IMG/VR virus record: IMGVR_UViG_3300029787_000070
Span: 2,179-53,145 of that record
Length of the DNA: 50,967 nt
DNA from: a virus
Strand: one strand, 5' to 3'
Shown: positions 1,434 to 26,800 of the stretch, piece by piece
How positions within the stretch are numbered: the stretch's first letter is position 1
How the letters are laid out: each line of letters opens with the position of its first letter
Made by a program: the position numbers and the translations under genes
The notes under the pieces: generated by a model
The model's database searches: none
Told to the model about the DNA's origin: nothing
What the model saw: only the letters and a program-made list of their open reading frames with translations

Positions 1434-1840
1434 ATATAAATCTTATCGCAGATATGAAGAAAATATAATGCTCACAAAACGATAGCAAAAATGGTGGACT
1501 GGTAAATAATTAATATAATGTTTGAAATGATGTTCAAACTATGCATAATGTTCTTAACAAAGACCAAAACGATTATGTCTCTAAACTGTAGCCAACTACC
1601 CTAGCGGTTCTGAAAAGAGTAAAGTTGAATGAGGTTCTAGCAGTAAGGTTAGTATAGGTTCTCCAAGAAGTGCTAATCTGAATCCGCCTAAGAAAGTGGC
1701 TAGTGTGAGAGAGTGTAAAGCTAAGTGACAAAGTGAAGAAGCAAGACTCATAAAACCAAAAGGAAATTATCTTTTTGCTTTATAGATAAAGGAACTTATA
1801 AAGACTCACTTAAAGATATATAACTTTTGGGACTACTCCA

Positions 1841-1895
1841 ATAGTCTGTGAATTAACACACTGAAGAGCATCCAATTTTGGGTGCAAGAAACTAT
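1841..1895 (+). ncRNA. Hammerhead-like ribozyme A (leader of the 1915 gene)
   Basis: Type III arrangement: stem III AUAG/CUAU, cleavage triplet GUC ending at 1846, stem I UGUG/CACA, core CUGAAGA (1861-1867), stem II GCAUCC/GGGUGC, then GAAA (1888-1891). Two extra A residues between stem II and GAAA depart from the consensus, so activity is less certain than for copies C, E and F. An upstream CTCCAA (1836-1841) can pair with TTGGAG (1900-1905), which would cover the ribosome-binding site until cleavage. Confidence 0.6.
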
Positions 1896-1910
1896 AACCT
1901 TGGAGGGTTA
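1895..1910 (+). promoter_or_regulatory. RBS hairpin A
   Basis: TAACC and GGTTA pair perfectly around the loop TTGGAG, which contains the Shine-Dalgarno sequence. The ATG is at 1915. The same loop with different, compensating stems is found in all six leaders of this cassette. Confidence 0.75.
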
Positions 1911-1914
1911 AATT

Positions 1915-2268
1915 ATGAGCGATAATATTTATAAAACTATTTTATCTTTTAGTGATTTTGGTAATGCAATTTTAGGTATGGAATACAGCGATATTCCAAA
2001 ATATGTTTTTGATTTTGCTGAATCAAAAGAAGATAAAGGAAGAATACAAGAGTTAGTAAAACAGTTAATAGAAATTAAGCGTTGGGAGTCCCAACAAAAG
2101 GATAAAATTATTCAATTAAAATTGGCTAATGACAACGACATTGAACAAACTTCTGACAACTTAGATGCACACAATAAATTTTTAAAAGGGTGTGATGTTT
2201 TGATTAACGATTGTTGGAATGAAATTGCTAAACTTTTAAAAAATGAGGTTGGATTTCCAACAGCATAA
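1915..2268 (+). CDS. Hypothetical protein, first gene of the ribozyme-leader cassette
   Basis: 117 residues, soluble and mixed charge, predicted mainly helical. No signal peptide, membrane segment or recognised motif. The start is fixed by the TTGGAGGG ribosome-binding site nine bases upstream. The gene is followed directly by a hammerhead-like element and then the MoxR ATPase, so it probably belongs to the same functional unit. I do not recognise the family. Confidence 0.75.
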   Translation: MSDNIYKTILSFSDFGNAILGMEYSDIPKYVFDFAESKEDKGRIQELVKQLIEIKRWESQQKDKIIQLKLANDNDIEQTSDNLDAHNKFLKGCDVLINDCWNEIAKLLKNEVGFPTA

Positions 2269-2350
2269 ACCAACTGACGAGCCAATGAAATTTTGGCGAA
2301 ACATTAAACCAGTATTCAGTAATGAACTGACCCTATATGGGTGTCTTGGT
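2269..2350 (+). ncRNA. Hammerhead-like ribozyme B (leader of the MoxR gene), probably type I
   Basis: It begins right after the stop codon of the preceding gene. Stem I ACCAA (2269-2273) pairs with UUGGU (2346-2350). The core is CUGACGA (2274-2280), stem II GCCAA/UUGGC, GAAA (2298-2301), and the cleavage triplet GUC ends at 2345. Stem III closes only weakly (C-G, A-U, two G-U pairs) but carries an internal hairpin with a GUAA loop. The order of elements is permuted relative to the other copies. Confidence 0.5.
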
Positions 2351-2382
2351 GCTATCAATTTGATAGCGAATAACAAACTTAA

Positions 2383-2398
2383 AATTCTTGGAGGAATT
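2383..2398 (+). promoter_or_regulatory. RBS hairpin B
   Basis: AATTC and GAATT pair around the invariant loop TTGGAG, five bases before the ATG at 2403. It supports ATG 2403 over the in-frame TTG at 2388. Confidence 0.7.
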
Positions 2399-2402
2399 AA
2401 TT

Positions 2403-3467
2403 ATGTTTAAACCAAGTGAAGCAAAAACTTCATGCCTACATATTTTGAAAGGGAGTAATATTCCTTTCTTAATTGGTGGTACTGGAGTTGGAAAATCCGC
2501 AATAGTTAAAGAGATTGCGGAAGAACTAGCAAACGATAGAACTCTTACTGATTCAGTAAGTCCTAAAGATGATGAATTTGGATTCATATCTTTTAGACTT
2601 GGGTTAGTAGAATCTATTGATTTGGGAGGGTTGCCTTATATTGAAGAGGGAACTCAAAAGAAAGCATTTTTAGGCAACTTGCCTAGAAGTGGAAAGGGTC
2701 TATTTTTTCTTGATGAATTTGCACAAGCACATTCAAGCGTTCAAGCAACGATAGGACAATTACTCGACCCAAAAGGAAAAAACGAAGAGCGAAGAATTGG
2801 CGATTATGTTTTTCCTAGTGGGTGGAAAATTGTCTTAGCGGGTAATAGACATACTGATAGAAGCGGTGCGAATAAAATACTTAGGCATTGTCAAGATAGA
2901 ACTACTGCTATCCAGTTTACTCACGATGTGGACGACTGGTTAGCGTGGGCGGATAAGAACGACATTGACTTAAATGTTCAAGGTCTTATTAGATTCATGC
3001 CACAGCTACTATGGGACTTTGACCCTAAATGTAATGACCCACAGCCAAGTCCAAGAAGTTGGACGAGGTTAAGCGATACTTTGAAAACTAATCCGCCTAA
3101 ACGATTAATGCAAAAATTATTCGAGGGCGATGTTGGACAAGAATCAGCTATTGAATTGATGAACTTTATCTCACTTCAAAATGATGTTCCAAACATATCT
3201 GATATATGTAAGGGCAAAGATGTTGAAGTTATAGATGAAGCGGGTCTTTGCTATGCGACTACGATTGCATTAACAACTGCAATTAATGGAGCAAATGAAA
3301 GTAATGTTTATGACTACTTTGAAAATGCTTTGAATTATTTGAAGCAACTTTCGACTGTAGAATTTTCTATATTCTTTGTTAGAAAAATTACTGGACTTAG
3401 AAGCGAACTCAAAGAGTGCGATGTATATTCTAAGTTTAAGATTGATAACCAAGATTTAGAAATTTAA
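2403..3467 (+). CDS. MoxR-family AAA+ ATPase
   Basis: 354-residue ATPase that probably acts as a chaperone or remodeller together with the VWA protein encoded two genes downstream. Walker A is GGTGVGKS (residues 25-32). Walker B is LFFLDE (100-105), in the MoxR-type setting LFFLDEFAQAHSSVQATIGQ. Sensor 1 is in IVLAGNRHTD, followed by arginines in LRHCQDRTTAIQF. The C-terminal lid follows. Length and domain order match MoxR/CobS-like proteins. A TTG 15 bases upstream is in frame, but the RBS hairpin points to ATG 2403. MoxR-VWA pairs are common in bacteria and occur in phages, where their target is usually unknown. Confidence 0.9.
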   Translation: MFKPSEAKTSCLHILKGSNIPFLIGGTGVGKSAIVKEIAEELANDRTLTDSVSPKDDEFGFISFRLGLVESIDLGGLPYIEEGTQKKAFLGNLPRSGKGLFFLDEFAQAHSSVQATIGQLLDPKGKNEERRIGDYVFPSGWKIVLAGNRHTDRSGANKILRHCQDRTTAIQFTHDVDDWLAWADKNDIDLNVQGLIRFMPQLLWDFDPKCNDPQPSPRSWTRLSDTLKTNPPKRLMQKLFEGDVGQESAIELMNFISLQNDVPNISDICKGKDVEVIDEAGLCYATTIALTTAINGANESNVYDYFENALNYLKQLSTVEFSIFFVRKITGLRSELKECDVYSKFKIDNQDLEI

Positions 3468-3479
3468 ATTTACATTACT

Positions 3480-3521
3480 GGGAGGGAATATTTATTATTT
3501 ACTGGTAAATATTCCTTTCCC
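3480..3521 (+). promoter_or_regulatory. A+T-rich hairpin with CUGG-type loop, before ribozyme C
   Basis: GGGAGGGAATATTTA pairs with TAAATATTCCTTTCCC around a loop containing ACTGGTAAATA. It lies between the stop of the MoxR gene and the ribozyme. It may act as a 3'-end-protecting or terminator-like hairpin for the upstream message. Comparable hairpins lie before ribozymes D and E. Confidence 0.6.
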
Positions 3522-3525
3522 GCTC

Positions 3526-3582
3526 ATTCTGATATTGGAATGTGTATTCCAACTGACGATTCAAAAATGATGAAATCAGAAT
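3526..3582 (+). ncRNA. Hammerhead ribozyme C, type III (leader of the DUF3150-like gene)
   Basis: Stem III ATTCTGA/TCAGAAT (7 bp); cleavage triplet AUA ending at 3534; stem I TTGGAAT/ATTCCAA with loop GTGT; core CTGACGA (3553-3559); short stem II TCA/TGA with an AAAA loop and a flanking U-U mismatch; GAAA at 3572-3575. All conserved core bases of the hammerhead fold are present. Cleavage would fall 75 bases upstream of the ATG. Confidence 0.85.
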
Positions 3583-3593
3583 TTATTAATTTT

Positions 3594-3609
3594 AATTCTT
3601 GGAGGAATT
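3594..3609 (+). promoter_or_regulatory. RBS hairpin C
   Basis: AATTC/GAATT stem with the TTGGAG loop, abutting the ATG at 3610. It shows the Shine-Dalgarno bases in the loop, as in the other five leaders. Confidence 0.7.
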
Positions 3610-4572
3610 ATGAAAAATGATAATGTAAATACTTTATCTGAAAATGCTACTTTAGTTCGTTTCACAACGAAACATCCAAGCGGTATTAAATCAGATAAGG
3701 ATTTAAGAAAAGGTCTTGCAATAGACAAAGAAGCCAACAATGATTCACTTCATGTTGCTAAGTATATTTTTGGTAAGGAAACGAATAAGTATTTTCGTAG
3801 AATTATCAATCAGTTTAGGTATAACTATTTTTATCCTATGACTGTCCCTTGGGATGATAACACTAGCGACTATGAAGGTAAGGTTCTTAGTGGGTGGCGA
3901 CTATGCCCAAACAGAGAACTTGATAGACTCATGGATAAGGCTAACGAGTCCAAGTCTGACTTCCAAAAGGAAGTAGATTCATTTCTTGATAATTATGAAA
4001 ATTTGATTGAAGCGAATAAGCACAAACTTGGACAAGCATTTAAGTTGTCTGATTATCCTGATAAGGATGTAATAGCTACTAAGTTTAGATTCGATTTTGA
4101 ACTTGGTACTGTTCCACAATTTAATACTAAGGATGTTCGTTTAAATGTATCTGAAAAACTTCGCAAGAAGATTGAACAAGACGCATTAAAAAGAGCAACT
4201 AAAAATGTTGAAGCAATAACACGAACTACTGTCGATACTCTTTTGGAATCAGTAGAACATTTGGCTGACAAGCTAAAATCTTATGACCCAAAAACAAAAG
4301 GTGGCGGATTCTTTAAGAACTCATCTTTTGATAAGTTAAGACAATTTTTAGATACGCTTCCAAGTATCAATTCTGACATTCTAGGGAATGACCCAACGAT
4401 AGCGGAAGCACATCAAAATTTGGTTAGTGTCTTTGCAAAAATAAATGATGTCGATTCACTTCGTGATGATGATGATTATACTGATAAGAAGCGAAAGCAA
4501 CTTGCGGATGATTTAAAAGATTCAGTTGATGAATTGAAAGGCGGATTCTTAGACGATATGTATAAGAAGTAA
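3610..4572 (+). CDS. DUF3150-like protein of the MoxR/VWA cassette
   Basis: 320 residues, no membrane segments. The N-terminal ATLVRFTTKHPSG, the central WRLCPNRELDRLMDKANE, then DYPDKDVIATKFRFDFELG resemble DUF3150 proteins, which in phages often sit between MoxR ATPase and VWA genes. The C-terminal part is helical and charged, with likely coiled coil around residues 180-225. I assign the family from pattern and gene order only. It probably forms a complex with its two neighbours. Function is unknown. Confidence 0.6.
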   Translation: MKNDNVNTLSENATLVRFTTKHPSGIKSDKDLRKGLAIDKEANNDSLHVAKYIFGKETNKYFRRIINQFRYNYFYPMTVPWDDNTSDYEGKVLSGWRLCPNRELDRLMDKANESKSDFQKEVDSFLDNYENLIEANKHKLGQAFKLSDYPDKDVIATKFRFDFELGTVPQFNTKDVRLNVSEKLRKKIEQDALKRATKNVEAITRTTVDTLLESVEHLADKLKSYDPKTKGGGFFKNSSFDKLRQFLDTLPSINSDILGNDPTIAEAHQNLVSVFAKINDVDSLRDDDDYTDKKRKQLADDLKDSVDELKGGFLDDMYKK

Positions 4573-4583
4573 GCCAATGAGTT

Positions 4584-4623
4584 GCGGTGTAAAACTATTT
4601 ACTAGTAAATATTTTTATATCGC
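4584..4623 (+). promoter_or_regulatory. A+T-rich hairpin with CUAG loop, before ribozyme D
   Basis: GCGGTGTAAAACTATTTA pairs with TAAATATTTTTATATCGC around CTAG, with one mismatch and a few G-U pairs. It ends exactly where stem III of ribozyme D begins. It contains the ACTAGTAAATA form of the repeated motif. Confidence 0.6.
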
Positions 4624-4679
4624 TTCTGTCTTGGGATGTGTATCCCAACTGATGATGACCCAAAAGGGTCGAAACAGAA
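4624..4679 (+). ncRNA. Hammerhead ribozyme D, type III (leader of the VWA gene)
   Basis: Stem III TTCTG/CAGAA; cleavage triplet GUC ending at 4630; stem I TTGGGAT/ATCCCAA with loop GTGT; core CTGATGA (4649-4655); stem II GACCC/GGGTC with loop AAAA; GAAA at 4671-4674. One U (4656) is unpaired between the core and stem II. Compared with copy C, the changes in stems I and III preserve pairing, which is direct support for the fold. Confidence 0.87.
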
Positions 4680-4691
4680 ACTCATAAATCA

Positions 4692-4707
4692 AATTCTTGG
4701 AGGAATT
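4692..4707 (+). promoter_or_regulatory. RBS hairpin D
   Basis: AATTC/GAATT stem with the TTGGAG loop, just before ATG 4712. It decides this start over the in-frame TTG at 4697. Confidence 0.7.
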
Positions 4708-4711
4708 AATT

Positions 4712-6094
4712 ATGAAAAATAGTGAAGAGCGAATGATTAAAGCGAGAGCGAAACTTATGAAAGGTAATGTTGGTATGGCAACTATGTTATTAAAACTTAC
4801 CTTGATTGAGGATAATCAGCGATGTCAAACAATGGCTACTGACGGAGTAAATATCTATTGGAATGATGAATTTGTTAAATCAATAACTGATGATGAAATT
4901 CAAGCGGTATTAGTTCACGAAGCAAGTCATGTTATATGGGAACATCCGCTAAGAAAAGGGAAGCGAAATCACGAACTTTGGAACATAGCTACTGACTATG
5001 TAATTAACTCTTGGATAGCATATGACTTACATATGGATTTACCAAAAGACGGATTATTAGACATGAGGTATAAGGGACAAAGTGCGGAACAAGTTTATAG
5101 AACTTTATCTAACGATGAAGATTTACTAAACGAAGCTATCGAAGATTTAAAATCTAAATCTGATAATGGCGATTCTGATGATTCTGATTCTCAAAGTGGT
5201 ACTGGCGATTCTGATTCTGATTCAGATACAAATTCTGATTCTGATTCTGATTCTAGTTCTGACTCTGATTCTGATTCCAACGATACTGCCAATGGAAATG
5301 GTAAAGGCAAATCTCTTGAAGAGAAACTTGCTGACTTACCAAAATCTAGTGGCGAAGTTTGGATTCCAACTAATGAAAATGGACAAGAATTATCGCCTAC
5401 TGAAATGGCTGAACTACAAGAAGAACTTCAAAGAACTATCACAATGGCTGACAAGTTAGATAGTATTGGAAGTGGTTCTGTTGGTTCTCTTCGTGGTGCG
5501 GTGCAAAAACTCAATGAGACTTATGTTGACTGGGTTGATGTATTGCGAGACTTATTGCAGTCTGCTATATCAACGAATCCTACTTGGACTAGATTAAATA
5601 GGCGACATTCTTGGCGAGGTATTAATTTGCCTAGCAAAGACAAAGAGCCTAGCGGTGGCGAGATTGTCGTTGCAGTTGATACAAGTATGTCTATGACCCA
5701 AGAAGAACTTAATATCTTTGCTACTGAAACTCAATCCCTTGCGGATGAGTGCGGTATAGATAAGATTAGAGTTTGCTATTGTGATACGACTGTTATCAAA
5801 AATAGTAATGGCGAGTGGTGGGATGAATACGAACTTGATTGCGATGATTTAGAGTTCCAACTTCGTGGCGGTGGCGGAACTGATTTTGAACCGCCTTTCA
5901 ATTTGTTTAATGAATATACAGATGATACAGACGATGTATTAGCCTTTATTTATTTTACAGACGGATACGGAAGTTGTAGTGCGGAAGTTGAACCTAATGT
6001 TCCAGTAATATGGGCATTAACTGGTGGCGAAAACTATTGTACTGATGAACTGCCTTTTGGCGAGAAAGTTAGTATCGATATGTCTAGTCTTTAA
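4712..6094 (+). CDS. Metallopeptidase-like/VWA-domain protein (DUF2201 type)
   Basis: 460 residues in three parts. Residues 1-150 are a putative metallopeptidase domain with HEASH (69-73), a match to HExxH. Residues 150-190 are an acidic Ser-Asp repeat linker. The C-terminal VWA-like domain has VAVDTSMSMT with D323, S325 and S327 as the metal-ion-dependent adhesion site. This layout matches DUF2201 proteins, partners of MoxR ATPases, as in CobS/CobT-like chelatase pairs. It probably works with the ATPase at 2403 on a shared target. Whether the peptidase site is active cannot be told from sequence. Confidence 0.85.
   Translation: MKNSEERMIKARAKLMKGNVGMATMLLKLTLIEDNQRCQTMATDGVNIYWNDEFVKSITDDEIQAVLVHEASHVIWEHPLRKGKRNHELWNIATDYVINSWIAYDLHMDLPKDGLLDMRYKGQSAEQVYRTLSNDEDLLNEAIEDLKSKSDNGDSDDSDSQSGTGDSDSDSDTNSDSDSDSSSDSDSDSNDTANGNGKGKSLEEKLADLPKSSGEVWIPTNENGQELSPTEMAELQEELQRTITMADKLDSIGSGSVGSLRGAVQKLNETYVDWVDVLRDLLQSAISTNPTWTRLNRRHSWRGINLPSKDKEPSGGEIVVAVDTSMSMTQEELNIFATETQSLADECGIDKIRVCYCDTTVIKNSNGEWWDEYELDCDDLEFQLRGGGGTDFEPPFNLFNEYTDDTDDVLAFIYFTDGYGSCSAEVEPNVPVIWALTGGENYCTDELPFGEKVSIDMSSL
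5169..5280 (+). repeat. Ser-Asp-encoding simple repeat in the VWA gene
   Basis: Repeated GATTCT units encode a run of about 40 residues that are mostly Ser and Asp, between the peptidase-like and VWA domains. Such a run is prone to length change between relatives. Confidence 0.85.
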
Positions 6095-6104
6095 TCACAA
6101 CAAC

Positions 6105-6151
6105 ATGGTGGAGGGAAAAAGTATTTACTAGTAAATATTTTTTCTCGCCAT
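6105..6151 (+). promoter_or_regulatory. A+T-rich hairpin with CUAG loop, before ribozyme E
   Basis: ATGGTGGAGGGAAAAAGTA pairs with the region ending at CCAT 6151 around TTTACTAGTAAA. The stem bases differ from the hairpins before C and D but pairing is kept. Confidence 0.6.
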
Positions 6152-6157
6152 CAATTT

Positions 6158-6214
6158 TTTCTGATATCAAGATGTGTATCTTGGCTGATGATTCTGAAAA
6201 GATGAAATTAGAAA
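6158..6214 (+). ncRNA. Hammerhead ribozyme E, type III (leader of the 6247 gene)
   Basis: Stem III TTTCTGA/TTAGAAA; cleavage triplet AUA ending at 6166; stem I TCAAGAT/ATCTTGG with loop GTGT; core CTGATGA (6185-6191); stem II TCT/AGA with loop GAAA and flanking U-U mismatch; GAAA at 6204-6207. Stem I shares almost no bases with copy F yet still pairs. Confidence 0.87.
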
Positions 6215-6223
6215 CTTAAAAAC

Positions 6224-6239
6224 TGTCCTTGGAGGGACA
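6224..6239 (+). promoter_or_regulatory. RBS hairpin E
   Basis: TGTCC/GGACA stem with the invariant TTGGAG loop. This stem differs from copies A-D at several positions with compensation on both sides. Confidence 0.78.
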
Positions 6240-6246
6240 TATAATT

Positions 6247-7074
6247 ATGCAAAATAATAATTATAAAAACGAGTGTTCTCCAGTTAGTACCCATGTTTCA
6301 GATGAAACTAAAACATGGTTAGATAATGTGAAGAATAAATATAGTATTGATATTTCAACACAACTTTTTTATGTGTTTTCAAAGATGATTAAATCTGAAA
6401 AGCAATTAGAAAAGATTGTAGTTGCCAGTTTACTAGATGAACATGAAAGTAGAGGTAATGCTTTACGAGAAATGGCTAATGAATTGGGTATTGAAACAAA
6501 TGTTATTGATGAACTTACATCAAGAATGGTGCCAGTTGTAAATGCAAATGTCGTTGATGTATTTTCTGCAAAGAAAACATCAAAAGTTGGTAAAACAACT
6601 AACATCATTAATAAATGTTTAGATGAAAATTCTGATATTAATACTGCAATGAAGTCTAAACTTGAAGAAGCTGTAAGTAAATCAAGTGTGTCTGATGAAA
6701 TTATTGATTGGACATCATTTGGGTCTTATAGATATTCAGATTTAGATGTTCTTGGTATGGCAATAAGAGGGTACAAAATTCTACAAGAAGATAATCTTCG
6801 TGGTGGATTTATGAATGGATTGTATGCTTCTTTGCATAATCAAGCCTTGGGTCTTTGGTCTGATGAAGAAAAACAACTAACCATAAGACAAATTGTTAGA
6901 TTACAGCCTAAAGTGTGTGCTAGAACTGGCGAACAAAAAACTTTAGCAATACAGTCCATGGTTAGAAGATTGTTTAAAGCTATAGTTCACTTTGGAACTG
7001 CAGAAGAAAAGATGAAGTTATTTGGAACTTCTGAAATCTATCCTAAGCCAAGGAAAAGAAAAGCCAAGAAATAA
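6247..7074 (+). CDS. Hypothetical protein of the ribozyme-leader cassette
   Basis: 275 residues, soluble, with a basic C-terminus rich in Lys and Arg. The N-terminal part (residues 10-75) is helical and could include a small DNA- or protein-binding fold. The central part has VSDEIIDWTSFGSYRYSDLD. No catalytic motif or membrane segment is visible. The start ATG follows a GGAGGG site held in hairpin E. It is placed after the VWA gene with its own ribozyme leader, so it is likely part of the same system. I do not recognise the family. Confidence 0.75.
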   Translation: MQNNNYKNECSPVSTHVSDETKTWLDNVKNKYSIDISTQLFYVFSKMIKSEKQLEKIVVASLLDEHESRGNALREMANELGIETNVIDELTSRMVPVVNANVVDVFSAKKTSKVGKTTNIINKCLDENSDINTAMKSKLEEAVSKSSVSDEIIDWTSFGSYRYSDLDVLGMAIRGYKILQEDNLRGGFMNGLYASLHNQALGLWSDEEKQLTIRQIVRLQPKVCARTGEQKTLAIQSMVRRLFKAIVHFGTAEEKMKLFGTSEIYPKPRKRKAKK

Positions 7075-7124
7075 TAGACTGGTAAATATTTTTATCTGAC
7101 ACAACACAGATGGAAATTGTCTAA

Positions 7125-7185
7125 TGCAATTTGAGAGTGGGTTTTTTAGGGTATCTTAGACCCTTAACCTACTCTCAACTTTGCA
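7125..7185 (+). promoter_or_regulatory. Long near-perfect hairpin before ribozyme F
   Basis: TGCAA pairs with TTGCA, TTGAGAGT with ACTCTCAA, GGTT with AACC and AGGGT with ACCCT. This is about 22 bp in one arm with a seven-base loop. It lies between the 6247 gene and ribozyme F. There is no U-run at its base, so it is more likely a processing or stability element than a terminator. Confidence 0.6.
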
Positions 7186-7217
7186 ATAGGCGAGTTCTCA
7201 CGAAGTCAATTTTGTTA

Positions 7218-7276
7218 AAACTGTATAGAAAATGTGTATTTTCTACTGATGATTGCTAAAAGGCATGAAACAGTTT
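7218..7276 (+). ncRNA. Hammerhead ribozyme F, type III (leader of the 7310 gene)
   Basis: Stem III AAACTG/CAGTTT; cleavage triplet GUA ending at 7225; stem I TAGAAAAT/ATTTTCTA with loop GTGT; core CTGATGA (7246-7252); stem II TGCT/GGCA with loop AAAA; GAAA at 7267-7270. All core positions agree with the hammerhead consensus, and the stems are unlike those of the other copies. Confidence 0.88.
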
Positions 7277-7288
7277 ATTAAACTTAAC

Positions 7289-7304
7289 TGCCCTTGGAGG
7301 GGTA
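7289..7304 (+). promoter_or_regulatory. RBS hairpin F
   Basis: TGCCC/GGGTA stem (one G-U pair) with the TTGGAG loop. It lies just before ATG 7310 and decides that start over an upstream in-frame codon at 7253, which lies inside the ribozyme. Confidence 0.75.
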
Positions 7305-7309
7305 ATATT

Positions 7310-7606
7310 ATGAAAAATAAAAAAGAATATGTTTATAAGATACAAGAATCTTATAAAGGTGTTAGGCATTATCAAGTAACATCAAATGTAAAGCTGACTG
7401 ATGATGAAGTTAAAAGTGTGTATGATGATTTCAATACTAAAGCGAGATACTCTCACAATAATTTAACTCAAAACATTAAATGGTCTGATAAAAGATTTAC
7501 TGATGATGAACTTCTTAACAAGATTGAAGTATATTCTGACTGCTTAGGCGAGGAAAATGAAAAACTAAATCTTGATAAAATAAATGGAGAATTTGAAAAT
7601 GACTAA
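7310..7606 (+). CDS. Hypothetical protein
   Basis: 98 residues, acidic, mixed helix and strand. Contains VKLTDDEVKSVYDDF and KRFTDDELLNKIEVY, two similar TDDE-starting helices suggesting a small internal duplication. No known motif. Start chosen from the RBS hairpin. It overlaps the next gene by eight bases, so the two are probably translated in tandem. Confidence 0.7.
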   Translation: MKNKKEYVYKIQESYKGVRHYQVTSNVKLTDDEVKSVYDDFNTKARYSHNNLTQNIKWSDKRFTDDELLNKIEVYSDCLGEENEKLNLDKINGEFEND

Positions 7607-7862
7607 TAGAGAACTACTAGAATTTACTTTGAAAGTAAATATTGGAACTTGCAACGAAATCTATACAAAGATTAATAGGGAACTAGAAGAAAAATCAGAT
7701 ATTGATTTGGCTCTAGTTAAATATTTTAATACTTTGGTTTCAATTAATCATAAAGTGCAAGATGTTTTATATAAGGAAAGGGAGAACTTAAACATCCCTA
7801 ACCCAAAACATTTTGGATTTACAGCTAATGATGAGATTGTAGAAGTTGAGGTGCAAGAATGA
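7599..7862 (+). CDS. Hypothetical protein
   Basis: 87 residues, mostly helical, no membrane segment. The ATG at 7599 is preferred because GGAG lies eight bases upstream; an in-frame ATG at 7584 has no such site. It overlaps the previous and next genes by a few bases. I do not recognise it. Confidence 0.65.
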   Translation: MTNRELLEFTLKVNIGTCNEIYTKINRELEEKSDIDLALVKYFNTLVSINHKVQDVLYKERENLNIPNPKHFGFTANDEIVEVEVQE

Positions 7863-8050
7863 ATATTGACCTAGATAGAATTAAAAATATCGCAGAAGAT
7901 ATTCAAAATGATTTCAAGAATGAAGCTGAACATATAAAAGAAGTTTGGGGAGATTATCACGATAAGACCAAACTGTATAAGCGAATACATGAAGAAGTCA
8001 TAGTTGCTTTTAACATGATGATTAATCATTTAGAAGAAACTGAAGAATAA
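7859..8050 (+). CDS. Hypothetical small helical protein
   Basis: 63 residues, highly charged, predicted helical. It starts in an ATGA overlap with the stop of the previous gene, a sign of translational coupling. It is the last gene before a strong terminator at 8057 and closes the MoxR/VWA transcription unit. Function unknown. Confidence 0.65.
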   Translation: MNIDLDRIKNIAEDIQNDFKNEAEHIKEVWGDYHDKTKLYKRIHEEVIVAFNMMINHLEETEE

Positions 8051-8056
8051 AATTAA

Positions 8057-8099
8057 GGCGGGATGCTACTGTAAAAGGTAGTGTCCCGCCTTTTTTTTT
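8057..8099 (+). terminator. Rho-independent terminator of the MoxR/VWA cassette
   Basis: GGCGGGATGCTAC pairs with GGTAGTGTCCCGCC, seven-base loop, then nine T residues. It begins six bases after the stop of the last gene. Confidence 0.93.
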
Positions 8100-8244
8100 G
8101 GTCTAAAAAAAGTGGATATACGCAGGATAACTGGGATGGTAATAAAAAATATTTACTGGTATATTGTTTTTTCTGGTGTTGTTTGGGGTGGGGTAATGTT
8201 AGATGAGATGACAAAAAATAAAATATATTTACTGGTTTTTAAGC

Positions 8245-8265
8245 TGTGGATAAGTCTGTGGAAAA
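8245..8265 (-). other. Two DnaA-box sequences
   Basis: TGTGGATAA (8245-8253) is the complement of the consensus box TTATCCACA. TGTGGAAAA (8257-8265) is a common variant. The two lie 12 bases apart in the same orientation, next to A+T-rich DNA. Binding by host DnaA is inferred. Confidence 0.6.
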
Positions 8266-8409
8266 AGTGTTAAAAAGTTGTTAATAACTCTTGCAATTTG
8301 CTATCAAATACATTATATTATTGAAACTAATATTTGATTGCGTGATTTTTTAATTTTATTTCCAATACAATTTCATATATTAACCTCCAAGCTTATGTTT
8401 ATAAGTTTA

Positions 8410-8442
8410 AAGGGATAGTCGTAAGATTGTCCCTTTTTTTTT
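8410..8442 (+). terminator. Rho-independent terminator
   Basis: AGGGATAG pairs with TTGTCCCT around a short loop, then nine T residues. No gene on the plus strand ends just before it, so it may end a non-coding transcript from the origin region or insulate the next unit. Confidence 0.75.
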
Positions 8443-8669
8443 GGTAGTCGGTTGATAGTCTATGATAGGCGACACACCACCAAGTCTCCATCAGAAAAAT
8501 CCCAGACTGGTAAATATTTTTTATCCTGAACCGACAGAGATGGCAGAAACCTGTAGTGTTTAATAATACAGCAGTAGGGGTGATGAGGCGTTGTAAAACA
8601 ATAGACTGGTAAATATTTTATTTTTGTCAGGAAATACCACAGGTGTCGGAAACACAGCAGTAGGATAAA

Positions 8670-8685
8670 TGTTCCATGTGGAACA
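8670..8685. promoter_or_regulatory. parS-like palindrome
   Basis: TGTTCCATGTGGAACA differs at one central base from TGTTCCACGTGGAACA, a form of the bacterial ParB-binding site parS. It lies 24 bases from a promoter -10 box, so it could equally be an operator. Confidence 0.5.
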
Positions 8686-8693
8686 ATAGATAT

Positions 8694-8722
8694 TTCACTT
8701 TGATAGCATTTTGCAGTATAAT
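8694..8722 (+). promoter_or_regulatory. Sigma70-type promoter of the 8731 gene
   Basis: TTCACT (-35, four of six), 17-base spacer, TATAAT (-10, perfect). The expected start point falls at or one or two bases before ATG 8731, so the message would be leaderless. Confidence 0.6.
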
Positions 8723-8730
8723 AATTGCTT

Positions 8731-9045
8731 ATGTATGCGGTAATAAGACACACATATCACTTAGATATACCAGAGCCAAGTAATGCTTATTCAACTAAGT
8801 CTAGTGCTAAATGGAAACATTTTGTATGGATATTTGAAACTGAACTAGATGCTCTTGCCTTTGCCATATCTCTTTTAGATGACCCTTTAATTATGTCTAA
8901 CGAATGGTTAATTGAAAGTGCCATAAAGCAATTAGAAGAAGATAGGTATTATCAAGTTGGTAGAGAAAGTGTTGCTATTGCAGAAGTGCAAGATAGTCCG
9001 CAAATTATTTTTAAGGATGATAACTATGAAAAGTCTATTCATTAG
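8731..9045 (+). CDS. Hypothetical protein upstream of the RHH regulator
   Basis: 104 residues. It begins MYAVIRHTYHLDIPEP, then FVWIFETELDALAFAISLLDD, then helical and acidic. No recognised domain. ATG 8731 is preferred to the TTG at 8725; either lies almost on the predicted transcription start. Its 3' end overlaps the regulator gene by 20 bases. It may be an early takeover protein, but this is speculation. Confidence 0.6.
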   Translation: MYAVIRHTYHLDIPEPSNAYSTKSSAKWKHFVWIFETELDALAFAISLLDDPLIMSNEWLIESAIKQLEEDRYYQVGRESVAIAEVQDSPQIIFKDDNYEKSIH

Positions 9046-17507: not shown

Positions 17508-17888
17508 ATGCTAAAAGATATACTACAAGAAAAGTTAGATAAACGAAAAAGAAAGTGGTGGGAGTGGCACAAAAAGAATCCACAAGTTTGGGATAAGTTT
17601 GAGCAATACACATTGGAGGCTATCAATAGTGGTAGGAAAAAGTATTCGCATTGGGCGATAATTAATCGTATTCGTTGGCACAATGAGATAGAAACTAAGG
17701 GTGGGGACTTTAAGATAAGTAATGATTACATCTGTTTCTATGCCCGTTTATTTCATGCTAGACATCCACAACATAAAGACTTCTTTACCTTGAAACCATT
17801 GAAAGAAGAAAAGGATATGGCTATGTTAGAGGTTAAGACTGAAAATAGGAATGTTAGCTTTCTTCCTCAATTCGGGAACCATAGCTAG
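17508..17888 (+). CDS. Conserved phage hypothetical protein
   Basis: 126 residues, basic and rich in Trp, His and Phe. The pattern INRIRWHNEIETKGGDFKIS followed by FYARLFHARHP is typical of a widespread phage protein family of unknown function found near replication genes. GGGAGGAAAGCAA before the ATG at 17508 sets the start; the frame can be extended upstream to 17442, but only through the hairpin. Its end overlaps the end of the giant polyvalent gene on the other strand by 63 bases. Confidence 0.72.
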   Translation: MLKDILQEKLDKRKRKWWEWHKKNPQVWDKFEQYTLEAINSGRKKYSHWAIINRIRWHNEIETKGGDFKISNDYICFYARLFHARHPQHKDFFTLKPLKEEKDMAMLEVKTENRNVSFLPQFGNHS

Positions 17889-20800
17889 TCGCATATCTCT
17901 TTCTAGTTCTAAATCTCTTATCATATCTGACTTAACTGTTATAGATAGATTTTCATCTTGATAGATTCTATCTCTACGCTTTCTCCAGTTATCTAAGTAT
18001 CTTTCTATTGACCTTACTTGTCCTTTGATATTCAACACACCTTGCATATTGCTTCTATAAGCTGATAGTTCATCAAATCTTCTTTGTTTTTGTAGAGAGT
18101 TGATAGTTGCTACTGCCCTGTCAACCTCTCCTCTTAACTCATAAAACTGTTGCTGATAACCACCCGACTTATCTAAATCAAGTAATAGTCTATTAAAGAC
18201 TGGCATTTTACTTAGTTGATAGTTGGAAGGTATTAGAGGACTTCCTGTAGCTCCTCTAGTGATAGTATCTACAGCACTTAATACATATCCACCAAGTGTT
18301 CCTGTATAACCTCTCATAACGTGCTCTATCTTTGCAGGAGATATATTAAGAGCTTCACCCATTACTCTTGCAAACTCATTGGTAGTTGGTCTTGATTGTA
18401 ATCCAGGTTCTTTCTTTTGTTGATAGTAGGGTACTATTTCTGTATCAGTAAAAGTATTTCTGTTATTTATTACTTCTGATATAGGTTTTAATAATTGTAT
18501 TCCACCACCAGGTTGAAAGAATGGTATGTTAAAAGAAGTTTGAGCCTGTCTGCCAATAGATGTCATAGCTTCATCAACAGACTTTCTTGTAAAAGCATCA
18601 TCTCCCATAGTCATATCAAATACTCTTTCTGGTATAGCTTTAAATAACATACCTACTTCAAATGGAATAGGTATCTTAACTGCATTGCCATTGCCTATAG
18701 GCATGACCCAGTTATCATCTCTTACTTCTCGTTTAAGATTTTTGTATTCATCTGTATCACTTACCATCATGTAGTAAAGTGCCGTTAGACTTACAAGTAA
18801 TCCTGCATTAAAGAATGTTCTTCTAAATATTCTTGATTGTACTTCTTTTAGTGATTCTCCAACCTGTTGTTTTTCTACAGCAGAATATTTACCAAATAAT
18901 CCTCTATGTAATACATCAAGACCTTGTATTCTTGCATTTAAGAATGGTATTGCAGCAGTAATAATTCTAAATAATGAATCAGAACCACGCCTTCCAAAGT
19001 TAATTATTTCTTGTGCTTGATAAGCCGCTTCTGATTGTGCAACTGCTTCTGATTTACCTTGCTCTTTTAACATTTTATAAACACCATCATAAACTGCTTT
19101 ACGAGTTGCACCATCTGATTTAGTAGTAAGTGCTCCTAAACCATCCCATAATTTAAAGAAAGCACCTGTAGGAGACATACCATTATTTGGTGTAAGTCCT
19201 TGTTGTCGCATAGTTCTAGTAATAAATTGCTTTACACTACCCTCATCAACAGAATAGTCATAGCCACCAAGAACACCAAACTGTTCTAGTTCTTCCATAC
19301 TACCAAACATATTTTTAACTGAATCAATGATAGGCGTATATGGTGCACCACTTGTTACAGCAGAAGATAAAGTATCTCTTAAAATATTTATAACAACAAA
19401 GCCTGGGTCTCTTGTAACTGTATCTCTAAGCAGCCCTGCTGGTACTGCTAAAAATTTTCCTATAGCACCTGGAGCTACTCCTCCAACATTTTGTAAACTA
19501 TAGACCAGTCTAGGGTCATCTACCTGATAGTGTTGCTTGTTACCATTTTCAAAGAAGAATAAGCTATCAGTTGTACCTGCGTCTTTTGCAGATATTTTTT
19601 GAGCTAATCCCATTGTTTCTAAGTTTGTAACTATTTTATTCATTGCATCATTTTTTAATGCTGCTGTAAGAATAGATAATGAGTTTCTTGATATAGCTTC
19701 TATTGGGTCTGCATCAATAATTTCTTCTGAACCTTTTATTTGTATATCTAATGGATTTCCTGGTAGTGAACCACCTGCAATTTTAGGTCCTTTAATGCCG
19801 CTATCATCAACCATTTGTCTATAGAAAGGATAATAAACAGAATGTTCTCTCCATAATGCAGATTGTTCTGCACTTAAAATACCTTTACTTTCTGCAAGTT
19901 TAATTAAAGCATTATTCCAATTTTGATAATTATTATAAACTTCTACCACTTCAGGATGTTGTTGTTCTATTTGCTGTATAAGAATATAGTCTTTAGGTTT
20001 AACTGGTGTATCTATTTCTCTACCACTTTCATCAAGACTTTTTGCTCTTTTTAACATAGCATAACTTTTAAAAACAGCTTCTAAATTTAACTTAAGATTA
20101 GAAAATAATGGTGCAAGTATTTGTATAAGACCACCTGTTTTACCTGTAAGATTACCATTAGCATCAACAAGAGGTAAAGGTATTGTTTTTACTAAAGATT
20201 TAACTCCATCTACTAAATCAGTTGGTATTCCTCTTGTAAGCATACCTTGAAATACACCTCTTGATTTATCAGACATTCTTACTGATTGTTCTGCACCTGC
20301 ACTTGCAAACATATTAGCAAGTGTTACTTGTTCTGCTGTTGCTATAGCTTCTTCTTCTGTATAAGGTTTTTTAGTTTTAGGATTTTTTCTTAATTTACCT
20401 GTTCTCTCATCTATTCCTAAATAAAATTCTTTAGTTTTACCAGCTAATAATGTTTTAGTAAGGGTATCGTATTGGTCAATATATCTTTGTCTAAACTCTT
20501 TAAAGAAATTTTTAATAGATGTAATAGGGTCTTTAACAACTTCAATAAATCTAGCACCCATAGATTGGTCAGGCAATACTTCTCCACCTGTTCTAGTAAT
20601 AAACTCTTTTAAGTTATCTTGTAGTCCATCAAGAGTAGGTCTTGAAAAATTAGGTATATCATCAGGTGCCTTAGCAGATAAGTCTTTATTAAAGTCTATA
20701 GCAATCTTTAAGGCTGTATCTGAGGCATTTAAATTGTAATAAGGTATTGAACCTCTAGGTGTTTGTTTAACTGTTTCTTCGGCTTCTGCTAAAGCTTCTC

Positions 20801-23800
20801 TTAACTGTATATTTGTTTGTGTATTAGTACCAGTATCATCTCTTTGACCTCTACTAAATAAAGGTATATCTGCTTGTATATCAGGAGCAGTAGCAACTTG
20901 TACTGCATAATTTAACTTATCTTTAGTTTGAGCACTATCTCTATGTAAAGGTGCAATTTCTCCTAGTTTATTTATAGGAACAACAAAATTTGCAAATTGA
21001 TTAGTATATGCTTCACTTTCTTCATCTATATTTTCATTTTTTAATGAAGTAACACCTTGTTCTTGTAAAGTTTGACCACTAGGATTAGGTATATTTTGTT
21101 CTACATTACTTTCAGGAAAATGTATAAATACAGGAACAGTTCTACCACCACCTTTTTTTATTAATGCAACTCTATGTCTGCCTTCATGTCTAATTATTTC
21201 TCCATTGCCTGTAATTTGTAAACTTGGTAATGAAGCAGTTAATGCAGTATCTGCTATTTCTGGGTCAAACATAGCACTAGACATTCTTCTATTTTTAGGG
21301 TCTAAAGCCGCATTTATATCTCCTTCAGAAATACCATATACTGTTGGACCTTCTTCCATTATGTCGTTTATATGTTCTTGGTCAAATGTTGTAAGTTTTA
21401 AAAAATCATCAACATTCATTCTTGTAACATGAGTTAAAGGTATTTCTACTCCATTATAAAAACCAACTCTATTACTACTAAAGTCTCTAATTTGTTGACG
21501 ATTAAAGTCCATATATGGAGGTTGTGTTTCTGTAGCTGCTCTACTAAATGTAGGTAAATCTGTATCTTGTTCAGGTGCAAGTCTTACACCTACTTCTTGT
21601 GGATTAAATATGACCATACCAGTCATATCATCTTTACTATAGACACCATCATATCCAGCTTTTTTTACTTTATTTGTTAATGCAAATGTATCTGTTTTAG
21701 TTCTTGGAGATTCCCAAGATTCTAAATCTAATTGTTTTTTAAACTCTATAAACTGTGTACTATCAGCATCAAGTAATTTTATATTATTAGGAACAAAATA
21801 TTTATTTACTATACCAGCTTCTCCTACTTGCTTAGCATAAGCTTGTGCTGTAGCTACTCTATCAGTTAAATAAAGTCCTTCACCTAATGCAAAGAAATCT
21901 TCTCCAGTAGCTACACCTGTATTTGGATTTTCTCCTCTATAAAAAATATTATTATTTTTTTCAAAACTTTGTTTCATCCATTCTGGATTTTCATTTAAAG
22001 TATTTTCACTACGCATTTCTTTTACTATTTTGTCTTGTAAAAATGCTGCTATATTATATATACGTTTTCGTACTGTAATTGATTCTCCTTTAGCAGGAGC
22101 AGTTTTAAAAGTTATTTTATTGCCATCTATATCAAATTTATTAGTTCCTCTTTTAATTCTTTTATCAAAGAAATTTCCATCTGAGTCTACAAAATTTTGT
22201 GGTAAATCACTTGGACTTGGATAATAATATAAAGAATCTTCTTCATCTTTAATGCTTTCGTATTTACCAGTTTTAGGATTCCATTTACTTAAATCATTTG
22301 TAACAACAAGGTCTCCTACTGGAGATTCATTTAAAATAAATGTTTTTGTTTTACCATCACCTACAAAATCTCCTATTTCAAAACCTAAATTTTGATATTC
22401 TGCATATCCATATTCATCTAAACTATTACCATATCTAGCATCATATGGTAAATAATCATATTGTTCTGTTGCAAAGTCCCATTCACCTACTAACATACCA
22501 TCAAAAGTTCTCTTATCAAGAACATCATCATTAATACCTGAAAAAGCTCCTGGTGGTATAAGTTCTGGGTCATTGTATTGCACATCTGAGTATGATACAT
22601 TTTGGTCTGAACCATATATAACTTTGTTATAATAATTTAACCAATTTTTTTCATATTTTTTATAAGCTTCAGCAACTTCGCTATACCATCTGTTCTGATA
22701 TTCTCTACTTTGTATAATATCGTCATCTGTAACAGTTCTACTAAATAAAGGTGGTTGTATGCCATCATCTAATTCTTTTAATCTTTGTTTTGTTTTATTT
22801 ATAATAGCTGATGTATTTGTTATAGCTCTATTTAATTTTGTTACTTCCCAATCTTTTAATATAGTAGCATCTACTGTTCTTTCTCTTTCTTTTTCAAACA
22901 ATAATTGATTGTGATAATTTAAACTTTCTTCTAGTATTTCTCTAGGTGCAGTATTTATTTGTTGTTGTGTTTTTGGATATTTGTTTGTTGTTCTACTAAA
23001 TAAAGAAACTTCTTCAGCTATACCTCCTGGACGATTATCACCTGCAAGAGGTACACCTTCAGCTTGTAAATCTAAAGCTACTCCAGCATTTTTAAGAAAT
23101 GCAGATAACTCTGTATCAAGTTTAGCTGGTATTCCTAATATATTTCTAATAGCTTCTACAAATTCATTCCATATACTTTTAGTAGCACCTGGTTTTGTTG
23201 GTATAGATTCTAATAGTTCTTGAAAGTTTCTATTTGTTAAACCAAATGTTAAAAATTCTGCAGAATCTGGTCTTGATTTTCCGCTTTGTATTCCATTTAT
23301 TCTATAATCTATTAAATTTTCTTTAAAATATTTTAACCTACTTCTTACATCACTTTCAGTTCTTAACTTGCCATTATTAAAATATACATCTCTTAACTCT
23401 ACTCTTAAAGAAGTATTTAATGTAGTAGGTAAACTTGACATAAATTCATCAAAAGTTAAATTACCTTCATCAATATTTGTAGCACCCTCATCAAATTTAG
23501 ACATAATATCTTTAACATAAGTCTCAACTCTTGTTCTTTGATTAGCTAAATCTTTATATGCTTTTTGTATTTTTTTATTTTTAGATTTTGGACCACCACT
23601 TACATCTTCCATATGTGGAACAGTAGCTTGATGTATGCCTTCATGTAATAATGTTTCAAAATTAACACCATTGCTGCCCATTAATGTTCTAGCAACAGGA
23701 TTAGTAGGTCCAATTTTGCCTTCTGCAAATTCTACAAAATCTTTACCAAATACATCATTTATACGCATTTTAAAATATTTTGGTTTAGGTAATATTGTAT

Positions 23801-26800
23801 AACTTACTCTGCCTCTAAAACCTCTTGTTTTATTTTTATCTGCAGTTATTTCTAAAGGAAAGTCATAACCTAATTTTTCTAATGCAACTAAAGATTGATG
23901 AACTTTTGTAGCTATAATTTTATAGTCTTTATTAGGTGCATTATTTTTTAACCATTTCATCATTTTTACAGAATCACCTTTGGTACGACTTCTTGGATTA
24001 AATACACCTGCTTTTTTAAGACCATCTAAAATAAAAGTTCTTTCATCAGATTTTTCTTTTGCAGACATTTGTCTTGCATTATAAATTTTATTTGGCACAG
24101 GACTTGTAGTAGGTGCAACAGGAGGAGTTGTAGGACCTGCTGGAGGCGTAGTAGTTGTAGGTGTAGGTTTTGGTATGGTTAAAGGTCTAATACCTGTAGG
24201 CTTTAGAGTTTGTTTTATTTCATCACCAGGAATTATTGTTGGTCTAACTGCAGGTTCATCTAATTGTGAAAAGTCTGTAGCAAAGTTAAATGATTGTAAT
24301 CCCTTATCTCCAATCCTAGTAGTTCTTACTATATCTCTTTCTCTTCTGCCAATCCTGCCTGATTCAATATCATTAAATATTTCTGTAGCACTCTTATATC
24401 CTGAGCTACGCATAGCTTGACCCATAGATTTAAAGAACTCAATAATCTTATTGTAGATACCTTCTACTTTAGGAGGAGTATTAACCAGTAAATCTTTTTG
24501 TCTAAATAGTTCTGCTATAGCTTCTTCTACAATATATTCTTCTTTAAACGCATCTGTTAAATTTCTATTTTCAAACTCACGCTTAGTTCTATTAATAGCT
24601 TCTTGATAAAAAGTTTGATTTTGTTTAGGAAATTTAGTTTGCTTAACCATTTTAGTTAAATAACTATATTCTGCTTTAGTAATTAAATCTTTTGCACGAA
24701 GAGCATGAATCATCTCATGGTCTAATACTTTGTTAAGTCTTTCTTGTATCTCTACATCGGTAGCACTACCATCAGGATTTACTGCATTAAGAGATAAGAA
24801 AATAGTATCTGTATTTCTATCATATTCTCCTTCTACAGCTCCTTGTGTTTCTGTTGCTCTAACTTGACTAGGGTCATACTTTATTTCACCTTCTATTTGT
24901 CTTAATGTGCTAGTAGAGATTATGTCATCACTTATAACAATGCCAGTCTCTTTAAGACCTCTAGCATCCATTGTTTTTCTTATTTCTTGTGCAAACTTAT
25001 TAGTCTTACCTTGCTCTAAAGTCTCAGCATAATTAATAGTTTTAGGTATTACTTCTGCAGGTGGTAGTAATCTTTCTTGTTTTGTTGTTTCTTGTTGTAC
25101 TAATTCTGCAATAGTTTCTGGAGGCAACTTACCTTCTGCAGTAAGTCTTGCACCAAACTCTTCTGGTGTTTCATTAAAACCTTCTGCTCTTCTAGCTATA
25201 TCAAACTCAAAGTTATCTCTTATCTTATAGTTATTAATGCCATCTATTTTTTCTGCTCTATTGCTATAAATTAAATCATCAAGAAATTGTTCATTCCGAC
25301 CCATTTGTTTTAAGGATGCTTTATTAAAAGTCATATTATTGCTTTTCATTTCAGCAACAAAATCTGCCATATCTTGTGCAGAATAATCTCTTGGTCTAAA
25401 GTCTGGGAAAGTTGTTCTTGAATTGAACTTAGGAAGTGAATGAAGTTTAGCTAAAAATAATTCTTTTTGACCTTGTTTCATTTTTTTAAACTCAGGCGTA
25501 CCTGTGTATTTTTCTGCTGCATATTGAACAGCAGGTGATTGAAAAGATAAATCTATATTTTTAGATGCAGCTATTTCTAATATATACATAGCTGATGTAT
25601 TTGGTTTATCTTTATCTGCAACAATAGAAGGCTCACCATTTTTTTCAGAAGCTTTAAATACTCCTTGTGCATATGCAGATGTAAATTCATTAAACTGTTT
25701 AGGTGTTAATAATTCTTTAGCTTGTTTCATAGATAATCTAGGATAGCTACGAGAAGTTTTGCCTGGATTTTGTGCAACAAAACTATTTACTAAACCTCTA
25801 AGAATTACCTCTTGTTTAGAATCTTTAGGCACACTATTTATTAATTGTTGAATAGTTACATTACTAGCTTTAGTATCTTCTAAACTTTGTCCTATTTCAT
25901 AAGCAGTAGAACTATTAATTAGTCCTAAGTTATATGTATCGTTATCTAGTTTTGATTTTAATTTTTTATTATTAAAGTCTTTTGTTATCTTATCTCTTAC
26001 TTTAATAGCTTCTATTTCTGTATCTTTTATATCAACCTGTGCAGGAGCTTCAGGATTAGTAATATCAACAACGGCAAATTGTTCTTGTGGAGTCATTACT
26101 ACTTCTACTGAAGGCTCTGTTGTTAGTTCTTCAGGTGCTATAAGTTGTGGAACTATAGTAGGTGGTATATCTTGTATTTCTTCAAGAGTGCCTTGCTCCA
26201 TTGCAAGTTCAGCTTTTTTTGCATTTATTAACTGAGCTTTATTTTCATCAGCTCTTAAATTATCTTCTTCTAGTTGTTTTCTTCTAGCAGAACTTTTACC
26301 TGCCATACTAGTAACAACTAAATCAGCAGCAGCACCAATAATACCGCCAATAGTAAACTCTTCAAACATACTATCTGCTATAGGTAAGTCCTCACTATAA
26401 AGACCTCTAGCTGTTAAATCTTGTAATATACTTGCAGCTACCTCTTGTCCACCCTCAGCAGCTCCTGATTGTAATGCAGATACTAATCTTTCTTTAGTAT
26501 TTAAATCTGTTTTACTAGATACTTTACCTAAAATTCTAGCAACAGGTAATACTTCAGTTATACCTATAAGACCACCAAATAATTCAGCAGTAGTTTCAGT
26601 TAAACCACTTACATCTTCGCCCATTTCTCTAGCTATCTGTAGTCTATCGCCTTGTGCTGCTATACCTGTGGGTATTGCTAAAGCTGTTGGTGCTGTAAAT
26701 GTTGGTGATAGTATGCCCTTAGCTGCTCCTGGTGCTTTAGCTAGTGCTCTACCTACTAGACCTGCACCTAAGAATGGTCCGAATGAACCTATGCCTTCTC

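Follow-up and report, generated by a model that had tools for sequence, protein, structure and literature searches.

Clusters of hammerhead ribozymes around phage genes have been described before. The sections of Perreault 2011 (PMC3088659) on phage clusters report multiple hammerheads flanking prophage genes, propose that long phage transcripts are converted into mRNAs by processing, and show that three tandem hammerhead arrangements cleave in vitro and that one of them also does so in E. coli; the function of the clusters was left open there in 2011. Here we analysed 50,967 nucleotides of viral DNA (positions 2,179 to 53,145 of IMG/VR record IMGVR_UViG_3300029787_000070; hereafter the window, about 51 kb out of a 53-kb record), in which an operon of eight genes carries six hammerheads, designated A to F. 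As in the prophage clusters, several hammerheads that share one strand surround consecutive phage genes, and U10.1-U11.1 variants occur among them. The largest arrangement named in those sections is a triple one and the flanked genes are described there as not constant, whereas the window has six ribozymes, one for each spaced gene unit. A further difference is that the same junctions are kept here in phages that, judging from their relatives among marine phage isolates, are probably marine, and that the arrays come with Shine-Dalgarno (SD) hairpins and a special first leader.

We consider it likely that the six hammerheads cut a single eight-gene phage transcript, while it is being made, at every boundary where neighboring genes are separated by a gap and do not overlap, and so yield six messages. 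The basis of this reading is the presence of the ribozymes, their positions, the covariation of their stems, their conservation at gene junctions and their absence at overlaps; cleavage itself, the chemistry of the ends, cotranscription and any effects on stability or translation are what we infer or take from general knowledge. Because PMC3088659, in the sections cited, already has clusters, the same processing hypothesis and tandem cleavage, the claim of the initial annotation that a serial array splitting one transcript was of an undescribed kind is not upheld. As far as we searched, what is new is the scale of the array, its junction-by-junction conservation, the covarying SD hairpin and a first leader with an anti-SD hairpin that ends at the cleavage site; marine-phage arrays this long, the SD hairpin and the anti-SD leader were not found in the open-access literature, outside which most subscription journals lie.

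Six hammerhead ribozymes in one operon

The operon consists of eight open reading frames (ORFs), all on the + strand, that encode a 117-aa protein, a MoxR-type ATPase, a DUF3150 protein, a DUF2201 metallopeptidase-like/VWA protein, a 275-aa protein and three small proteins from overlapping frames. Both strands of the window were scanned for elements that combine CUGANGA and GAAA with three stems and a cleavage triplet of the form NUH. The scan returned six elements, all on the + strand, and none on the opposite strand; 40 first-order Markov shuffles of the window gave one match altogether (mean 0.025). The initial annotation had named hammerheads with cleavage positions at 1846, 2345, 3534, 4630, 6166 and 7225, and exactly these were recovered. 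The CUGANGA and GAAA core is present at 6/6 sites and the triplet, as demanded by the scan, is GUC, GUA or AUA at all six, and the elements are genuine hammerheads as sequence and structure.

Hammerhead A (1841–1895; predicted cleavage after 1846, GUC) is a type III element of a separate conserved class of first-gene leaders, with a short stem III and two additional A residues inserted between stem II and GAAA. It precedes the 117-aa ORF (1915–2268), which has no match in Pfam or PHROGs. Hammerhead B (2269–2350; after 2345, GUC) is a type I element whose stem III is long and branched; it precedes the MoxR-type AAA ATPase (2403–3467; Pfam AAA_5, phrog_1297). The remaining four are of type III: C (3526–3582; after 3534, AUA) ahead of the DUF3150 gene (3610–4572), D (4624–4679; after 4630, GUC) ahead of the gene for the DUF2201_N metallopeptidase-like and VWA-like protein (4712–6094), E (6158–6214; after 6166, AUA) ahead of the 275-aa ORF (6247–7074; no match in Pfam or PHROGs), and F (7218–7276; after 7225, GUA) ahead of the three overlapping ORFs (7310–7606, 7584–7862 and 7859–8050). 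The latter are all served by F and have no ribozyme between them, so that there are six ribozymes for eight ORFs. The location ahead of MoxR, DUF3150 and DUF2201-VWA units was thus borne out by the Pfam domains, as it was by the junction counts given below, and the notion of one hammerhead per coding unit of this cassette holds for the spaced units and fails for the overlapping ones. The type III assignment of C to F and the bulged U of D likewise stood, and the full core agreement ascribed to these elements did not: the G10.1-C11.1 pair that closes stem II is present in A and B, C, E and F carry U.U at this position, and D has the bulged U followed by G-C.

Conservation and covariation at gene junctions

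Related loci were assembled in two sets. The close set comprises 52 loci found by MoxR protein similarity (51 contigs, one of 50% identity), and the distant set comprises 36 loci, namely 35 with an identity of at most 70% plus L152, taken from the best 80 of 258 MoxR matches with a query alignment that included loci first found through ribozyme patterns. Over the window and both sets, the strict scan found a hammerhead at 106/125 junctions with a gap of at least 90 nt, and the core motif lay in the gap at 119/125. At gaps below 90 nt or overlaps the count was 0/36. In the close set, strict hammerheads lie upstream of MoxR at 35/49 junctions, DUF3150 at 40/44, VWA at 36/39, the 275-aa ORF at 12/12, the ORF after it at 7/7 and the 117-aa ORF at 1/2. 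Fourteen MoxR junctions were missed; 12 of them have an A-type leader, L049 lacks a core, and L032 has what by eye is a type I element, rejected by the stem II rule. In the distant set the corresponding counts are 32/36 for MoxR, 17/35 for DUF3150, 0/29 for VWA and 0/1 for the 275-aa ORF. The absence ahead of the distant VWA genes is explained by the junctions themselves, since 28 of the 29 DUF3150-VWA junctions overlap and the remaining one has a short gap. Strand bias was nearly absolute: 163 strict elements lie on the gene strand and one on the other in the close loci (472 kb), and 103 and none in the distant loci (302 kb). Such ribozymes at conserved spaced junctions, with none at overlaps, make transcript processing directly testable and provide dozens of natural variants.

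The fold at one junction is not fixed among close relatives. The VWA junction has 31 type III and 6 type I elements, and the DUF3150 junction 40 and 1. A switch between type III and type I at the same junction indicates that what is kept is a cut at that place, not a single inherited fold.

For the analysis of covariation, leader cores were taken from the DUF3150, VWA, 275-aa and next genes with no stem requirement, which gave 124 rows, 68 of them distinct. The type III alignment contains all 38 of the 68 distinct leaders that are 61 nt long and supersedes an earlier one of 30 rows chosen by eye; the equal-length rule left out 30 of the 68, including all kinds of type I elements and those of the D and F types. 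In this alignment 93.1% of 684 cells pair (100% in stem I), and 179 cells are altered on both sides. The covariation score was 0.695, as compared with 0.240 in shuffled alignments (0/500 reached the real value) and at most 0.138 when the stems were slid. The A-type leaders (36 distinct rows, likewise selected by core and position and not by stems) were paired in 97.6% of cells and scored 0.447, as compared with 0.154 shuffled and at most 0.110 slid. The type III alignment bears out the statement of the initial annotation that stems I and III differ in sequence yet still pair. A fixed-offset pairing of all 68 rows (73–78% paired per stem; 28–51% slid) mixed the types and included cores from coding sequence, and was superseded. 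The core was a search criterion, and its presence in the two alignments therefore adds no evidence; the U16.1-A15.1 pair, which selection did not demand, is present in 38/38 type III rows and 36/36 A-type rows. The 10.1-11.1 pair is non-standard in 30/38 type III rows and G-C in 36/36 A-type rows. Loop I (UGUGUA in most of the 38 type III rows) and the A-rich loop II remain similar while the stems vary, which would suit a tertiary contact between them.

A covariance model built from the 38 type III leaders, termed R1, contains the sequences of C and E and not those of D and F. On the window it recovered C and E and found D (E 4.1e-13) and F (E 8.5e-11); the best match elsewhere had E 0.89.

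Ribozymes of this kind extend beyond the operon. Three ribozyme patterns matched 72, 50 and 53 stretches of viral contigs, and the first two of them led to 104 new loci, of which 9 lacked a strict element and are probably chance matches. One locus, L131, has seven type I elements, one before each of seven ORFs (cores at 6758, 7391, 7836, 8394, 8923, 10924 and 12022), and another, L110, has five of type III; neither has a match to the operon proteins. In L082, with five elements that all reach E 8e-10 or better, the MoxR and VWA matches are weak (24 and 28%). The exact A-type pattern was found in none of the bacterial or archaeal genome contigs searched. Strict elements were also absent from the MoxR/VWA regions of six isolate phages, where a relaxed setting gave 4 weak hits, and none were found in the first 48–50 kb of four further isolates.

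Probable transcript cutting and its alternatives

That related phages keep the ribozymes in the same places suggests self-processing of a long phage message into several short ones. On each cut, the piece on the 5' side would end in a 2',3'-cyclic phosphate, in many cases close to a hairpin. The message on the 3' side would start with a 5'-OH, and near this end would lie a stem-loop (stem I for type III elements, often an added hairpin for type I), behind which a hairpin would present the SD in its loop. The arrangement probably serves to let lifetime and translation start be set separately for each message. An intrinsic terminator-like hairpin at the end of the operon (8055–8092; 16 pairs, then a T run) also counts in favor of transcript cutting.

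Several observations weigh against it. Many of the loci are near-identical, so that the junction and strand counts do not represent independent events. The distant DUF3150 junctions have a strict element at only 17/35 although the gap is at least 90 nt at 30/35, and distinct pair types are no more numerous than in shuffles (28 versus 29.7 for type III, 15 versus 15.1 for A-type). Cleavage could be slow in C, E and F owing to the U10.1-U11.1 mismatch, and in A owing to a weak stem III (pairs 18-73 formed in 24/36 rows) and the AA insert. With regard to the former, PMC3088659 describes U10.1-U11.1, in its treatment of such variants, as natural and as the most active of the mispairs, and because U.U variants are counted as hammerheads in the literature, the mismatch does not exclude membership. 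R1 did not list B on the window and gave A only E 2.5. R1 also found no match in nine whole isolate phage records (a search that had no positive control), and there is thus no cultured carrier in hand. Finally, promoter matches number 26, as compared with 31.2 in shuffles; promoters are indistinguishable from noise by this count, and internal promoters may therefore be present.

The Rfam families belong among these points as well. At gathering cut-offs, Rfam returned nothing in the window, nothing in 10 operon-bearing loci and nothing in a further 8 that have other arrays, and a permissive scan of 1500–8800 gave 12 matches with no hammerhead among them. For 9050–9200 of L042 the best permissive match was drum (E 0.04), narrowly above RF00163 (E 0.049). 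Searching the whole record with Hammerhead_3 (RF00008) gave one weak match near B (16.1 bits, E 0.04), and the same search gave matches below the cut-off in 8/14 control genomes. When D was searched alone, it matched over the full length of the RF00008 model with 36.4 bits and E 6.5e-7 (cut-off 48.5). Rfam hits at all six sites, which the initial annotation had called for, thus came down to no site at the gathering score and to a significant match of D below it. The type I elements of L005 and L131 resemble Hammerhead_1 (RF00163) and RAGATH-1-hammerhead (RF03152), again below the cut-off, those of L131 significantly. Loops, the U.U pair and the A-type insert set the window elements apart from these families, and in the loci scanned here the gathering cut-offs miss such arrays.

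One alternative is that each leader has its own promoter, with the palindrome ACTRGTAAATATTTTT serving as promoter or operator, and that the ribozymes merely trim the 5' ends of separate transcripts. The window contains 15 copies of the palindrome as compared with 0.71 expected, 10 of these are intergenic from 3501 to 8620, and an ACYRGT core lies 5' of type III elements in 54/84 distinct stretches. Set against this, sigma-70 matches do not exceed those in shuffles, and such a hairpin is missing immediately 5' of A, B and F. In relatives, moreover, the palindrome is found as a hairpin within stem III of type I elements or just past their cleavage site, and hairpins inside or after ribozymes fit a transcribed element better than a promoter. 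We regard separate promoters as unlikely.

Slightly less probable still is that the ribozymes are controlled by a ligand or by the state of the cell, as natural aptazymes in which the branched stem III of B would be the sensor domain. In several relatives, stem III of B is indeed replaced by a conserved branched insert, TTAAACCAGTA...CTGACCC, whose arms by eye change together. In yet other relatives a simple stem III hairpin occupies this position, and the loops of C to F are short and leave little room for a sensor. It is very improbable that the elements have lost cleavage and persist as RNA structures that bind protein or stabilise the message: the non-standard 10.1-11.1 position of most type III rows and the A-type insert would fit, whereas the invariant U16.1-A15.1 pair, a constant core (itself the search criterion) with covarying stems, and a switch between types I and III that keeps only the core and the location of the cut all argue against it.

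The branched insert, in the form TTAAACCAGTA...CTGACCC...GGG, replaces stem III of type I elements in the window (2301–2344), L007, L010, L013, L015, L042, L047 and L039 (core 7301), and could possibly be a sensor or a structural module.

Hairpins of the leaders

The SD of the hammerhead leaders sits in a small hairpin with the loop UUGGAG and a covarying stem. It is present in 6/6 window leaders: at 1896–1909 (AACC-UUGGAG-GGUU, serving the gene at 1915), 2383–2398 (AAUUC-UUGGAG-GAAUU), 3594–3609 (leader C), 4692–4707 (leader D), 6224–6239 (UGUCC-UUGGAG-GGACA) and 7289–7304 (UGCCC-UUGGAG-GGGUA). In a sample of 84 distinct contexts out of 271 elements (13 without an SD motif in reach), arms of at least 5 bp were found in 49/84, as compared with a mean of 9.4 and a maximum of 19 in 500 permutations. 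A separate count gave 43/77 hammerhead leaders versus 30/144 other SD-bearing genes. We had considered that the hairpin might be exclusive to hammerhead leaders. Because the count among the other genes likewise lies above that in permutations of these genes (mean 9.2, maximum 18), the SD hairpin is enriched rather than exclusive, although some of these genes perhaps have leaders missed by the strict scan.

Other hairpins accompany the ribozymes. Type III elements often have one on their 5' side, with perfect stems of at least 8 bp in 38/84 as compared with 14% of shuffles; in the window these are the long hairpins 5' of C (3484–3521, ACUGGU core), D (4584–4623, ACUAGU) and E (6111–6146, ACUAGU). 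In the close set, the type I ribozymes that precede MoxR have a hairpin immediately 3', for example GCUAUC/GAUAGC or GUUAGC/GCUAAC. That of the window (2351–2367, GCUAUC-AAUUU-GAUAGC) lies directly 3' of cleavage site B, and both of its arms are altered in some relatives. Among 52 distinct type I elements, 46 have a downstream stem of at least 5 bp as compared with 66% of shuffles (mean 7.0 versus 5.2), a modest excess, part of which is the SD hairpin itself. The hairpins 5' of type III and 3' of type I elements could cap both new ends after cutting.

Copies of ACTRGTAAATATTTTT are also seen past the operon terminator, where ribozymes are absent, as at 8145–8160, 8506–8521 and 8605–8620. Just 5' of MoxR in L202, L207, L215, L218 and L220, the palindrome ACTGGTAAAT folds into a hairpin of 12 bp that immediately follows the type I cleavage site.

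The first leader differs from the others. A-type elements are present in 55/88 loci (the window and the close and distant sets minus L152), and in 51/51 loci that have an A-type and at least one strict element no other ribozyme lies 5' of the A-type within the extent of the locus. The SD-complementary sequence CTCC lies just 5' of the cleavage site in 36/36 distinct A-type leaders (CTCCA in 34). In other type III leaders, CTCC is found in 4/68 and CTCCA in 0/68, and CTCCA occurs elsewhere at 0.015 per 25 nt. An anti-SD hairpin of at least 5 bp can be drawn in 33/36 A-type leaders; in the window it is H0 (1831–1846, GACUA-CUCCAA-UAGUC), whose final base is at the same time the nucleotide after which ribozyme A is predicted to cleave. 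In fixed columns, 73.9% of the H0 cells pair, with a score of 0.207 as compared with 0.099 shuffled and at most 0.099 slid. The 3' arm of H0 doubles as the 5' strand of stem III, and the hairpin and the ribozyme are consequently mutually exclusive.

One tentative hypothesis is that the first leader is a translation switch controlled by cleavage. The CUCCAA loop of H0 might kiss or pair with the UUGGAG SD loop before cutting, and, as H0 holds the 5' strand of stem III, the RNA would be either blocked or ribozyme-competent. Cutting would free the SD and release a 5' piece with the anti-SD hairpin precisely at its end; in trans, this piece may act on the similar SD loops of the remaining messages and so tie the array together. 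Sequestration of the SD in cis was examined by folding. The predicted exposure of the SD rose from 0.45 to 0.69 on cutting (in 31/36 leaders), but a shuffled 5' piece gave 0.53–0.55, and the real piece gave lower exposure than the shuffled one in only 19 or 20 of the 36 A-type leaders. Because the real piece scarcely beats the shuffles, folding does not establish sequestration in cis. The engineered ribozyme switches that hide the SD, as presented in the relevant part of PMC5052635, are alike in that an anti-SD adjoins a self-cleaving ribozyme 5' of the SD; the present leader, for which cis sequestration is not established, differs in being natural and in having the anti-SD in a hairpin of its own. 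Taken together, the SD and anti-SD hairpins suggest a layer of coordinated translation, of which we found no description in the open-access literature searched.

Two further genes of the window lie on the opposite strand. A protein with CHASE2 and adenylate/guanylate cyclase domains (Pfam E 3e-23 and 5e-19) is encoded at 36396–38150 (−); it has relatives in 9 phage records, with 31–35% identity in Pelagibacter phage HTVC008M and Methylophilales phages Melnitz. A 3103-aa ORF occupies 17826–27137 (−), and its C-terminal part matches phage families of unknown function.

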